Position numbers and translations under genes: made by a program. This document shows positions 18,809 to 61,131 of a stretch of DNA of 64,000 bases, piece by piece. Within the stretch, counting starts at the first letter, position 1, and each line of letters opens with the position of its first letter. The notes beneath the pieces were generated by a model. The model worked only from the letters and a program-made list of their open reading frames with translations, was not told where the DNA came from and searched no databases. Source of the stretch: Rhodoluna limnophila (GTDB lineage: Bacteria; Actinomycetota; Actinomycetes; Actinomycetales; Microbacteriaceae); assembly GCF_005845365.1 (NCBI RefSeq), contig NZ_CP040509.1:1054001-1118000 (forward strand), given 5' to 3'.

Positions 18809-19226
18809 TTTGAAGATAGATGAGCGTCGTTGCTCTAACGAGTTCCTGATTTCTATCCAAACGGCTTACCGAAACAGTCAAGGCAACAGTGCCTGGATAG
18901 AACGTAGGGCAGGCGGCTAACTCGTCGGCGACGTGCAGTGTTATTCCTCGAGAATCCGTTGTATCAGGAAATGTCGAGGCGAGGAAGGCCACCACGGAAT
19001 CGCAGGTGGATCCGGCCTGACGAGCTGCATCCAGCCTCGATGAGAGGAGATGAGTTGCCATCGAGAGCACTGCATTATTCGTTGATTGCTGAATTCCGGC
19101 TAGAAGCGCTGGGACAAGAGCCAGTGAAAGGGTGGCCAAAACAAACATGGCCACAACAATTTCTACGAGACTGAAACCCTGGTTTGAGACCGTTGACTTT
19201 GACTTGACTTTTCTTAGCATCTTCAA
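18798..19226 (-). CDS. PilV-like minor prepilin
   Basis: 142 residues. The leader ends NQG and is followed by FSLVEIVVAMFVLATLSLALVP, an almost textbook prepilin motif with Phe at +1 and Glu at +5. The short globular part has two cysteines (STCDSVV and LAACPTF) that may form a disulfide. FSLVE(I/V)..AM is commonly seen in PilV/PilI-type minor pilins. The gene starts 30 nt after the hairpin that follows pilA, and overlaps the PilW-like gene by 11 nt. It is likely a low-abundance priming subunit. Confidence 0.8.
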   Translation of the reverse strand: MKMLRKVKSKSTVSNQGFSLVEIVVAMFVLATLSLALVPALLAGIQQSTNNAVLSMATHLLSSRLDAARQAGSTCDSVVAFLASTFPDTTDSRGITLHVADELAACPTFYPGTVALTVSVSRLDRNQELVRATTLIYLQSAN

Positions 19227-56579: not shown

Positions 56580-56917
56580 AATCCATTCCTTCGGGCACAC
56601 TGCGTTTCAGAAAGGCTGAACATCGATTCGGGGATATCCATCAACTTGACCTCTTTATAGGCGGTCATACAGAGCAGCTCCCCCGCCTCGCTCGGTTCGA
56701 TGCGGACACCGCTTTGATCAAAGGCTTCGATGAGTTGCGCCGGATCTTCTCCGCGCGCCAAGGCCCTGGATGCCGTGGCGGCCAGTGAAACCAAATTTAT
56801 GCGCTCCATTTGAAGCCCCAGGCCACCGATGGTGACCGACATCACCAGTGCAAGTGCCGGCAACGCCAGTGCAAACTCCGCGGTAACCGAGCCTCGATCA
56901 TTCGACTGGCTGACCAT
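56576..56917 (-). CDS. TadE-family pseudopilin
   Basis: 113 residues from ATG 56917; the frame is open 13 codons further but that would lie deeper in the upstream gene. DRGSVTAEFALALPALALVMSVTIGGLGLQ is the TadE signature helix with the Glu at position 5 after the conserved Ser/Val. The remainder is short, with an ASRALARGED helix and cysteines near the end. It overlaps DUF4244 by 20 nt and the Rv3654c-type gene by 4 nt, so it is part of the operon. It is expected to be inserted in the membrane as a minor pilin. Confidence 0.78.
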   Translation of the reverse strand: MVSQSNDRGSVTAEFALALPALALVMSVTIGGLGLQMERINLVSLAATASRALARGEDPAQLIEAFDQSGVRIEPSEAGELLCMTAYKEVKLMDIPESMFSLSETQCARRNGL

Positions 56918-57095
56918 TTGGATTGGTGAAGGTAAGGGCGCTTCTAACCAAATCAAAAAGGATGGTTTTCACCTCTTCACTCCGCATGATGACAACCAGC
57001 ATTCCCGCAAACCCAACCGCCGCCATAGTGGCGATTGCATACTCAGCGGTTGCGGCTCCGGTTTCGTCCTTCAGGACCCGAATTAGTGCTTTCAT
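56898..57095 (-). CDS. DUF4244 Flp-type small pilin
   Basis: 65 residues. DETGAATAEYAIATMAAVGFAGMLVVIMRSEEVKTILFDLVRSAL is the DUF4244 signature, the actinobacterial counterpart of Flp pilins. The short basic leader and TAEYA helix indicate insertion in the membrane and polymerisation into a pseudopilus. It sits between the TadC-like gene (14 nt) and tadE (20-nt overlap). The most likely structural subunit of this reduced Tad system. Confidence 0.85.
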   Translation of the reverse strand: MKALIRVLKDETGAATAEYAIATMAAVGFAGMLVVIMRSEEVKTILFDLVRSALTFTNPNGQPVE

Positions 57096-57109
57096 TTCTT
57101 CTCCTTTAT

Positions 57110-57967
57110 TTATGTGTGGGTGAGCATGCCGATTGCCATTGGAGCAACGGCCAGTAAGACAAATGCCGGCAGCGTAAGCAAACCAAGTGGCAGCATCAGG
57201 CGAATTTGTAATTTGCTAATGGCTTGCGCCTGATGGTTTCGGTGAGCTGCCCGAATTGCTTGCGCTGCATCAAGCAGCAGGCCCCTAATTGAACTTCCGG
57301 TCTTATGGGAAAGCGCACGGCATTCCTCGAGTGAAGCCTCGGCCTCTGGGTCTGGGGTTCCGATTCCCTTGAGTGAACGAGCTTCGGATTCGGCGCGCTC
57401 GGGGCTCAGCCCAGCGCTCAGCCCGATGGCAACGGCATCGAGAAAAGCCCCCGGATCGCTGAATTGCGGGCGAGCCTTTTCGAGAATGTTTTGCACCCAC
57501 ATCTGCCCAACTATCAAAAGGGCAATTCCGACCAGAAACGACAGAAACCCAAGAATTGATCCGGTGATGGAGCCAATTGGATTTAGTCCGATCAGCTGGC
57601 CGATTACCAAAGCCGCAAAAGGCAAACCCATGATCAGCTTGGCGGTTGCCCTGGGCGCCGCATAGGCCAATTGAATGCTAGCCGACTGCGACTGTTGAGA
57701 CTCAAGCACCTCGGCCAGCCGCAGCAGGGTAGGTGTGGGTGACCCACCGAGACGATTCGCCAGTTCCCAGGTAAGTTCAAAACGCTCGGCAACATCGGGG
57801 TGGAATTTGGCGATATCTTGCTCGAGATGCCCACGCGCTTGAAGCCCCGGCACACCCGCCGCCAAAAGGCTGGCCAGCTTTCGAATGACCACAGTTGTGC
57901 GATCAGACTGGTGCTCGAGCGTCCCAGATGCCGGCGGGATTGGTTTGCCCAAGAATTTAGAAATCAC
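57110..57967 (-). CDS. TadB/TadC-like type II secretion F-domain protein
   Basis: About 285 residues from GTG 57967, which overlaps the tadA stop by 11 nt; the frame runs upstream, but that is inside tadA. It has TTVVIRKLASLLAAGVPGLQA (first F-domain half) and, after two helices (FAALVIGQLIGL, SITGSILGFLSFLVGIALLIVGQMWV), a second half DAVAIGLSAGLSPERAESEARSL, then a last helix (MLPLGLLTLPAFVLLAVAPMAIGML). A single gene does the job normally shared by TadB and TadC. It would be the platform for the TadA motor. Confidence 0.82.
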   Translation of the reverse strand: MISKFLGKPIPPASGTLEHQSDRTTVVIRKLASLLAAGVPGLQARGHLEQDIAKFHPDVAERFELTWELANRLGGSPTPTLLRLAEVLESQQSQSASIQLAYAAPRATAKLIMGLPFAALVIGQLIGLNPIGSITGSILGFLSFLVGIALLIVGQMWVQNILEKARPQFSDPGAFLDAVAIGLSAGLSPERAESEARSLKGIGTPDPEAEASLEECRALSHKTGSSIRGLLLDAAQAIRAAHRNHQAQAISKLQIRLMLPLGLLTLPAFVLLAVAPMAIGMLTHT

Positions 57968-58919
57968 GAGTGACCACCTTGAGGTTACCGCTGGCATCGA
58001 TAAAAAATGAGCCGATGGCCGACACAACCCTGGAATTGACCTGAATTACCCACGAGAATGCCGATTGAACCGATTGAGCAAACCCTTCGCGGTCAAGCGT
58101 GCTTGCAGCACCGCCCGCCAAACCACTAGCCGAGACAATCGACTGCAGGCGAGAAGGGACATCTGCGAGGGAATTTGCATGGATGGTAGCGCCGGCGCCA
58201 CTGTGCCCGGTGTTCATGGCCTGCAGCAGAGTCAGCAGTTCAATGCCACGCACCTCACCGATGGCCAACCGATCTGGGCGCATGCGCAGCGCTTCACGAA
58301 CCAACCGATCGAGGTTGACCTCACCCTTGCCCTCAATGTTGGCCTGCCGAGTTTGAAGCGAGACAAAGTTTGGGGTGGGTAGGCCAATCTCGGCGACGTC
58401 TTCGAGCGCAATCACGCGCTCGGCGACGCATTCGGCCAAAAGGGCTCGTAGCAGGGTGGTTTTGCCGCTACCGGTGGGCCCGGCAATAAGAAAATTTTGC
58501 CTAGCAGCCAGCATTTGCCGAAAAAATCCGAGCTCACGTAAGCCAAACATGCCAAAGTCGGCTAACTGATCGAGGCCAAACAACCGCTCGCGATGAATAC
58601 GAATCGATAGGTGCGTTTTGGGATTGCAAACCGATCCAATGGCTGCGTGCACACGAATGCCGTCAATCACGACGTCGGCAAAGGGGTTTGCTTGGTCTAC
58701 GTGGCGCCCACCGAGACCGATAATTTGCTGAGCTAGGGCCGCCAGCTGGCCTTCAGATTGAAAGGGGCTGACCACTGATTCAAGAGACCGCGATGACCTC
58801 TGAACCCAGACCTGTTGATAACCGTTGACCAAAATGTCGGTGACCCCAGGCATAGTCAGTAGCGAATCAAGTTGGGGCCCAAGGCTTTGAAAGGTCATGG
58901 CAACAGCCTGATTTGCCAA
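57957..58919 (-). CDS. TadA/CpaF-like secretion ATPase
   Basis: 320 residues, of the CpaF/TadA family, short compared with standard CpaF (about 400-500) because of a reduced N-terminal domain. Walker A is IAGPTGSGKTTLLRALL (residues 147-155), then ALEDVAEIGLPTPNFVSLQTRQANIEGKGEV (Asp box), DRLAIGEVRGIELLTLLQAMNTGHSGAGATIHANSLADV (Walker B and His box). It powers assembly of the DUF4244 pilin and TadE-like subunits. It is first gene of the run, and the 6C-like RNA lies just upstream. No ssd/cpaE gene precedes it. Confidence 0.9.
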   Translation of the reverse strand: MANQAVAMTFQSLGPQLDSLLTMPGVTDILVNGYQQVWVQRSSRSLESVVSPFQSEGQLAALAQQIIGLGGRHVDQANPFADVVIDGIRVHAAIGSVCNPKTHLSIRIHRERLFGLDQLADFGMFGLRELGFFRQMLAARQNFLIAGPTGSGKTTLLRALLAECVAERVIALEDVAEIGLPTPNFVSLQTRQANIEGKGEVNLDRLVREALRMRPDRLAIGEVRGIELLTLLQAMNTGHSGAGATIHANSLADVPSRLQSIVSASGLAGGAASTLDREGFAQSVQSAFSWVIQVNSRVVSAIGSFFIDASGNLKVVTRDF

Positions 58920-58959: not shown

Positions 58960-59060
58960 GTTAAATTAGGGGGCCCCAGGATCTTGGGGGAAGTTCCTGG
59001 GGCCAGGCGATACCTGATTGGGGGAATCGGTATCGCAGGTTAGGTTCAAGACCTAACGAA
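58960..59060 (-). ncRNA. 6C-type small RNA candidate
   Basis: On the minus strand, two GC-rich hairpins with C-rich loops lie in tandem: GCGATACC (59036-59029) pairs with GGTATCGC (59014-59007), inner GATT/AATC leaves the loop CCCCC; and GGCCCCAGGA (59004-58995) pairs with TCCTGGGGCC (58981-58972) with CCCCC in its loop. A third hairpin GTTAGGT/ACCTAAC (59057-59039) precedes them, and TAATTTAAC follows. Tandem C-loop hairpins define the actinobacterial 6C RNA. In M. tuberculosis the 6C RNA (B11) lies beside the tad-like locus Rv3654c-Rv3660c, the same neighbourhood. Each loop has five rather than six Cs. A possible -10 (TATTAT) is at 59069-59064. Confidence 0.75.
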
Positions 59061-59163: not shown

Positions 59164-61131
59164 ATGTCTCAAGAACTAGATAACCTGCTCCACGAAACTC
59201 GGCACTTTGCTCCGACCGCAGAGTTCAAAAAGCAAGCCAACGCCCAGCCTGAACTCTATGAACAAGCCAAAAATGACCGACTAGGTTTTTGGGCCGAGCA
59301 GGCTAATAGCCTTCACTGGCACCAACCATTCACTCAGGTACTTGACTGGACCAACCCGCCATTTGCCCGGTGGTTTTACGACGGCAAAATCAACATCTCT
59401 TATAACTGCCTCGACCGTCACGTGATTGCTGGGCACGGAGACCGCGTTGCCCTCTACTTTGAGGGCGAACCAGGCGACACCAAGGAATTCACCTACGCCC
59501 AGCTAACTGAAGAGGTCAAGAGGGCCGCAAACGTCCTTATCGGTTTGGGAATCAATCCTGGTGACCGCGTGGCCATCTACATGCCGATGATTCCCGAGGC
59601 AATTATCGCGATGCAGGCAGTTGCCCGAATCGGCGCCGTGCACTCAGTTATTTTCGGTGGCTTCTCTGCAGAATCACTTCACACGCGCATCGAAGACGCA
59701 CAGGCCAAGCTGGTTATCACCGCCGACGGCGGGTACCGCAAGGGCCGCGCTAGCGCGCTAAAGCCGGCGGTCGACGAAGCTCTCGGTGGGGGCAAGTGTC
59801 CATCGGTGAAAAATGTTTTGGTCGTCAAGCGCACCGGCCAAGAGGTTGGCTGGGTTGAAGGCCGCGATCTTGACTGGGCCGAGGCCCTTGCCAGCGAAAA
59901 CCCAGAGCACGAGGCTCAAGGGTTTGAGGCCGAGCACCCGCTCTTTATTCTTTACACCTCTGGTACGACCGGCAAGCCCAAGGGTATTTTGCACACCACC
60001 GGTGGCTACCTAACCCAAGCCGCCTACACGCACAAGAATGTCTTCGACCTGCACGCTGACAGCGATGTTTACTGGTGCACAGCAGACATCGGCTGGATTA
60101 CTGGTCACAGCTATGTGACCTACGGCCCACTAGCCAATGGAGCAACCCAGGTAATTTACGAAGGCACCCCCGAGAGCCCTGACTGGGGACGCTGGTGGAG
60201 CATCGTCGAAAAATACAAGGTCTCGATTTTGTACACCGCCCCAACCGCTATTCGCAGCTTTATGAAGCTCGGCAGCCAAATTCCGAAGCAGCATGACCTC
60301 AGCAGCATCAGGGTTCTGGGCTCGGTTGGTGAACCAATCAACCCTGAGGCATGGATGTGGTACCGCAACGTAATTGGTGGCGGTAGTGCACCAATTGTTG
60401 ACACCTGGTGGCAGACCGAAACCGGCGCGATCATGATCTCTCCGCTACCGGGCATTACAACCCTAAAACCGGGTTCTGCCCAGCGCGCTCTGCCGGGTGT
60501 AAACATTGCGATTTTGGATGACGACGGTAACGGACTCGGAAACGGTCACGCCGGTCTGCTCACCATCACCGAACCGTGGCCATCAATGCTGCGCGGGATC
60601 TGGGGCGACCCAGACCGCTACAAGGAAACTTATTGGTCCAAGTTCAAGAACATCTACTTTGCCGGCGACGGCGCGAAGTTTGATGAGGAGGGCGACCTCT
60701 GGCTTCTTGGTCGAGTTGATGACGTTATGAACGTCTCTGGCCACCGTTTGTCTACAGCTGAAATTGAATCAGCCTTGGTCTCGCACCCGTTTGTGGCTGA
60801 GGCAGCTGTGGTTGGCGCCAAAGATGAGACCACCGGCCAGGCCGTAGTCGCTTTTGTAATTCTGCGACAAAACCAATTAGAAAACGCCGGTTCAGATGCT
60901 GACGTGAGCAAGATTTTGCGCGACCACGTGACTCACGAAATTGGGCCGATCGCACGGCCTCGAACCATCATGGTGGTTTCAGAATTGCCAAAGACGCGCT
61001 CGGGCAAGATCATGCGCCGACTACTTCGCGATGTTGCTGAAGACCGCCCTATCGGTGACGTAACCACACTGGCTGACACCAGTGTTATGGACATCATCAG
61101 CGGCAAGATTGCCGGAGGCGCGAACGACTAG
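59164..61131 (+). CDS. acsA: Acetyl-CoA synthetase
   Basis: 655 residues from ATG 59164, with AAAGGA upstream; an earlier in-frame ATG at 59080 lies in the intergenic AT-rich stretch. ANL-superfamily motifs: LFILYTSGTTGKPKG (P-loop), CTADIGWITGHSYVTYGPL, DTWWQTETGAIMISPLPG and the C-terminal acetylation-prone Lys in RSGKIMRRLLR. It activates acetate to acetyl-CoA with ATP. It fits the acetate symporter encoded at 48-50 kb. It ends at a clear terminator. Confidence 0.96.
   Translation: MSQELDNLLHETRHFAPTAEFKKQANAQPELYEQAKNDRLGFWAEQANSLHWHQPFTQVLDWTNPPFARWFYDGKINISYNCLDRHVIAGHGDRVALYFEGEPGDTKEFTYAQLTEEVKRAANVLIGLGINPGDRVAIYMPMIPEAIIAMQAVARIGAVHSVIFGGFSAESLHTRIEDAQAKLVITADGGYRKGRASALKPAVDEALGGGKCPSVKNVLVVKRTGQEVGWVEGRDLDWAEALASENPEHEAQGFEAEHPLFILYTSGTTGKPKGILHTTGGYLTQAAYTHKNVFDLHADSDVYWCTADIGWITGHSYVTYGPLANGATQVIYEGTPESPDWGRWWSIVEKYKVSILYTAPTAIRSFMKLGSQIPKQHDLSSIRVLGSVGEPINPEAWMWYRNVIGGGSAPIVDTWWQTETGAIMISPLPGITTLKPGSAQRALPGVNIAILDDDGNGLGNGHAGLLTITEPWPSMLRGIWGDPDRYKETYWSKFKNIYFAGDGAKFDEEGDLWLLGRVDDVMNVSGHRLSTAEIESALVSHPFVAEAAVVGAKDETTGQAVVAFVILRQNQLENAGSDADVSKILRDHVTHEIGPIARPRTIMVVSELPKTRSGKIMRRLLRDVAEDRPIGDVTTLADTSVMDIISGKIAGGAND

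Follow-up and report, generated by a model that had tools for sequence, protein, structure and literature searches.

The 6C RNA, also named B11, is among the few small RNAs (sRNAs) that are widespread in actinobacteria. In Mycobacterium tuberculosis, the 6C/B11 gene lies on the side of the tad-like genes. When Mycobacterium abscessus lacks B11, the genes and proteins that rise are enriched for ribosome-binding sites (RBSs) complementary to B11, which points to repression via RBS complementarity (PMC10470900). Repression by M. marinum B11 requires the C-rich loop 3 of the RNA, and compensatory changes rescue it partially (PMC12395582). The number of Cs differs between the described RNAs: the 6C loop of Corynebacterium glutamicum has 8 (PMC4046766), and the B11 loops of M. 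marinum have 6 and 9 (PMC12395582). We report here an element in Rhodoluna limnophila (Microbacteriaceae) which, judged from its sequence, is a genuine, divergent 6C (B11) RNA gene and thus a new copy of a known family.

The analysed window, a stretch of 64,000 nucleotides (53% G+C) from the 1.4-Mb R. limnophila genome, carries this 6C-family sRNA gene on the minus strand at 58963..59057, with a transcript of ~95 nt predicted from a genus covariance model, the fold and covariation. The isolated minus strand is predicted to fold into exactly three hairpins: a 5' hairpin without a C loop (hp1, 59057-59039, GTTAGGTCTTGAACCTAAC), a second one with the loop CCCCC at 59024-59020 (hp2, 59036-59007, GCGATACC-GATT-CCCCC-AATC-A-GGTATCGC), and a third, terminator-like one with the loop CCCCC at 58990-58986 (hp3, 59004-58972, GGCCCCAGGA-ACTT-CCCCC-AAGA-TCCTGGGGCC). 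At -45.4 kcal/mol, the fold of 59065-58955 is far more stable than those of shuffled sequences (-24.6 +/- 3.0 kcal/mol, z = -6.9), and none of 200 shuffles reached its stability. The initial annotation had described two tandem CCCCC-loop hairpins on this strand, and both are indeed there; its count of two for the whole element has to be corrected, as the third, conserved 5'-terminal hairpin hp1 had been missed. With hp2 and hp3, the element possesses the two consecutive C-run-loop hairpins on one strand that characterize 6C RNAs.

On the 3' side of the RNA and on the same strand lies the gene of the TadA ATPase (tadA, 57957..58919 minus, with a likely alternative ATG at 58898), which was identified by the Pfam domain T2SSE (2.9e-39) and by the NCBIfam model for TadA-family conjugal transfer-associated ATPases (5.9e-86, a match below the model's own cut-off). 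The acetyl-CoA synthetase gene acs (59164..61131 plus; Pfam AMP-binding, 6.8e-90, and ACAS_N, 3.6e-23) is divergently oriented on the 5' side, with an RBS and an ATG visible at its start. The tad locus in the window is reduced and comprises tadA, tadB/F-like and DUF4244 pilin-like genes (56898-58919 minus). Neither ssd nor the HAD hydrolase gene flanks the RNA in the window, and no ssd lies between the RNA and tadA.

The element is present in 30 of the 36 genus genomes examined. These 30 copies comprise the window copy, 22 found in other genus genomes by DNA similarity, and 7 more detected by R1, a covariance model built from genus sequences alone; the R1 match to the window copy (59060-58963, 103.4 bits) is that of a sequence contained in the training set. 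The six genomes without the element are mostly incomplete assemblies, but one of them (G020) is given as 94% complete. A BLAST similarity at 261775 turned out to be an unrelated terminator region. In all genus loci, acs lies on one side and, wherever the contig is long enough, tadA directly follows on the other, which is the position next to tad or ssd that actinobacterial 6C RNAs occupy. Across 22 aligned genus sequences, standard pairs fill 97.9% of the pair cells compared to 81.9% in shuffled alignments, and sliding the pair partners by 1-3 columns lowers the paired cells to 35-42%. Covariation of the stems in related genomes, on which the initial annotation had staked its reading, was borne out: compensatory changes occur in 13 of the 17 modelled pairs, a score reached by none of 500 shuffles. 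The hp2 loop with its flanks, UUCCCCCAA, is nearly invariant and the outer hp2 stem covaries, while the hp1 stem is kept despite divergent sequence (GTCAGC/GCTGAC, GTCGC/GCGAC and GACGGC/GCCGTC in relatives).

The direct match to the Rfam 6C model (RF01066) that the initial annotation anticipated did not materialize, as the window copy went unreported in every RF01066 search, even genome-wide at an E value of 10. The gathering cut-off of this model, 47 bits, is a detection threshold and not a biological feature. In 13 genus relatives, RF01066 matches this locus with 31.4-40.6 bits, i.e. below the cut-off, and in G160, a genome of the same family, it reaches 47.8 bits, above it. Conversely, R1 finds the 6C loci L054-L057 of the same family with E values of 6e-16 to 1e-12. 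It also recovers most of the 6C loci in other families, with E values of 2e-6 to 0.05. In G160, G059 and G089, all from the same family, the 6C RNA lies between acs and tadA, and the places of TopA and DUF4244 are also kept. R1 also recovered the RNA, likewise between acs and tadA, in two genomes from a third genus of this family in which Rfam had not detected it. In G170, the gene order is HAD-IB hydrolase, 6C, Ssd and TadA; this arrangement is the one reported for the 6C RNA of Streptomyces coelicolor (scr3558), which adjoins SCO3558 (PMC8539372). Since the models match reciprocally, RF01066 in the genus and R1 in other families, and since synteny is shared, we conclude that the element and 6C are of common descent, as the initial annotation had proposed.

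A -10 box, TATTAT (59069-59064 minus), lies 6 nt before the predicted start of the RNA. It is conserved at a fixed spacing: of the 30 genus copies, 23 have TANNNT exactly 6 nt upstream of hp1, and no other spacing within 30 nt is found in more than three. A promoter scan paired this box with ATGAAA at 59091-59086 (9 of 12 matches). The box at its conserved spacing thus places the predicted RNA start at 59057, in agreement with the start near this position suggested earlier. Downstream of hp3, the tail reads CCCCTAATTTAA in the window copy, a weak U run, and U-rich CCCCTTTTTT in relatives. A terminator scan did not call hp3, and termination at this hairpin may be leaky in the window copy because its tail is only weakly U-rich. 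Two features speak for a discrete RNA of ~100 nt, as far as this can be predicted from sequence: the conservation of the -10 box and the terminator-like form of hp3.

Very probably, the element encodes a stand-alone, trans-acting sRNA orthologous to 6C/B11, which has its own promoter and represses RBSs through its C loops. The RNA would be transcribed from a sigma-70-type promoter, starting at ~59057, would fold into the 5' hairpin and the two C-loop hairpins, and would end at hp3, which doubles as terminator. Its exposed CCCCC loops could then pair with G-runs at or beside RBSs, and this pairing would block ribosome entry and destabilize the mRNA. Independent transcription, C-loop pairing and repression are proposed here by analogy with experiments on mycobacterial B11; C-loop repression is the mechanism that best suits the element because its architecture is the same as that of B11.

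Alternatively, the RNA could act in cis on the tad operon, as a leader or attenuator, with its promoter transcribing into tadA and hp3 serving as a conditional terminator. The RNA lies on the tadA strand and ends ~45 nt upstream of the earliest tadA start, and termination could leak at the weak U run after hp3. Furthermore, tadA is co-located in all genus loci of sufficient length, and Rfam classifies 6C as 'Cis-reg'. An attenuator, however, needs no C loops, yet nothing in the element is better conserved than these. Moreover, other genera of the family (L054, L075) have a longer distance of ~280-370 nt between the RNA and tadA, and in G170 a whole gene, ssd, is inserted between the two. The C. 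glutamicum 6C/B11 is an independent RNA of ~100 nt (PMC4046766), and in mycobacteria B11 regulates distant mRNAs in trans (PMC12395582, PMC10470900). We therefore consider a cis-acting leader improbable.

Even less probable is a convergent C-loop sRNA unrelated to 6C, for example an analogue of Xanthomonas sX13. C loops are a simple motif, and sX13 was the only notable Rfam match when a narrow segment was scanned (29.4 bits, cut-off 50). Synteny with true 6C RNAs in the same family and the reciprocal model matches already disfavour such an origin, and the best other R1 match in the genome (1300083-1300166 minus, L079) is a lone terminator hairpin with 19 bits. It is hardly credible that the element is a plain transcription terminator or an inverted-repeat cluster without regulatory role, as the GC-rich hp3 and its partly U-rich tail might suggest, given that the site lies between divergent promoters with no upstream gene in need of a terminator, that the loops are conserved while the stems covary, and that the promoter is conserved as well. 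The hairpin at 1300083-1300166 was not counted as a second 6C RNA because it stands alone and, among four genomes tested, is confined to the genome analysed here and to its sister G017 (L077). It follows an unrelated ORF, and its loop, CTCTCCCCC(C)AGAG, equals that of the genus 6C hp3; it is possibly a decoy or a 3'-UTR C-loop RNA.

The loops of the window copy contain 5 and 5 Cs, which the initial annotation had considered a potentially interesting variation of the seed. This number is in fact ordinary, as the genus orthologs have 4-8 Cs and the published 6C family is itself variable; six or more Cs are hence typical of 6C RNAs, not defining. In one relative (G019, L016:1168-1263), the C run of the hp2 loop is gone (AGTTTTCAAATT) and CCCCC is retained in hp3, which fits the finding in M. 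marinum that loop 3 alone suffices. In another (G003, L069, RNA at ~1501-1597 minus), both loops have decayed (CCACCC and CCCC), giving a natural weak variant.

For the sRNA as a C-loop repressor, G-rich RBSs are plausible targets, as the initial annotation had suggested, with the DUF3073 gene (PF11273) as a concrete candidate. The 9-mer TTGGGGGAA, the complement of the whole conserved hp2 loop, has a single genomic site outside the RNA gene, and this site falls within a coding region, so that a long-seed target was rejected. As this 9-mer is nearly absent from the genome, any C-loop pairing would have to be short (5-6 bp). In G000 and G006, the combination of GGGGG and an ATG 3-12 nt downstream occurs ~1.9 times as often as its reversed version, an excess that could reflect ordinary Shine-Dalgarno sites. 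In both genomes, G5 precedes the starts of mraZ, the DUF3073 gene and a gene starting with MMTTAQSPGID. We discarded mraZ as a target, as only 12 of 30 genus genomes have G5 before this gene and just as many have AGGAG or GGAGG; in the genome analysed here, mraZ (513442, L136:331-345) has GGGGGAGCGCACATG upstream. We likewise dismissed the idea that G5 starts favour exported proteins, as the difference was too small and unreproduced: hydrophobic N-termini followed 7 of 14 clean G5 starts in G000 and 3 of 12 in G006, compared to 3 of 20 AAGGAG controls. As controls for the DUF3073 gene, G5 was found upstream of none of the 46 long ORFs in the window and upstream of acs in none of 30 genus loci, where the acs start could be confidently placed in only about 20. 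A prepilin-like gene (MLRKVKSKSTVSNQGFSLVEIVVAMFV...) at 19220 of the window (minus) carries GGGGCGGGGGTTGAAG just 5' of its ATG and is a possible 6C target.

The best candidate for a conserved target of the window 6C RNA is the DUF3073 gene, which is small and specific to actinobacteria. Of 30 genus loci, 29 have GGGGG in the RBS of this gene and none has AGGAG; of 30 genomes from other genera within the family and the order, 29 have GGGGG as well. Among 80 named records, nearly all of them Microbacteriaceae, 70 have G5 and most others G4. G4 sites occur in Aurantimicrobium and Pontimonas. The R. limnophila gene itself (L160:280-529, about 1262980-1263228) has GGGGGG. The sequence AAGGGGGU can be a working RBS, since with one G-U pair its pairing to the anti-Shine-Dalgarno is retained, and C-loop pairing would explain why G5 almost never drifts to AAGGAGG. 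Caveats to this explanation are that in high-GC genomes the conserved stretch extends further (GAGGGGGTCGACGCC), that DUF3073 also keeps G5 where no 6C was detected, that G015 has G4 with an intact 6C, and that co-variation between loops and this target was not seen. That 6C has in DUF3073 an ancient core target shared across the actinobacteria, with its RBS held as (A/G)AGGGGGU and not AAGGAGG for closure by the C loops, is a tentative proposal that we regard as somewhat less probable than its opposite. DUF3073 genes are reported to be essential in C. glutamicum, M. tuberculosis and C. diphtheriae (PMC10166564).

Our results reveal that 6C has been retained in a streamlined, freshwater-type lineage of Microbacteriaceae in which the present Rfam model fails. 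They add a genus family model, a promoter anatomy that fixes the predicted RNA ends, and DUF3073, with its nearly invariant G5 RBS, as a named candidate for a conserved target. If the DUF3073 reading holds true, 6C would be a conserved brake, acting on a gene whose essentiality is reported for three actinobacteria, which would explain its persistence even in a streamlined genome of 1.4 Mb.

Compared to known RNA systems, the element resembles 6C RNAs (RF01066) in its consecutive C-run-loop hairpins, the second of them terminator-like, in its place adjacent to tadA, and in the reciprocal profile matches with related genomes. It differs from them in having 5 Cs per loop, stems of lower G+C content, a score below Rfam detection, and an hp2 C run closed by conserved UU...AA. 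With mycobacterial B11, it shares the position on the tad side and three stem-loops, of which loops 2 and 3 are C-rich and loop 3 is the terminator (M. marinum, PMC12395582), whereas the M. marinum loops have 6 and 9 Cs instead of 5 and 5, and the RNA in the window is no longer flanked by ssd and the HAD hydrolase gene. The sX13 RNA of Xanthomonadaceae (RF02232) also displays tandem hairpins with C-rich loops and gives a covariance match of 29.4 bits, but this score is below the cut-off of 50 bits, sX13 belongs to another phylum and it has no known synteny in common with the element, so that its resemblance to the Rhodoluna RNA is likely an analogy.
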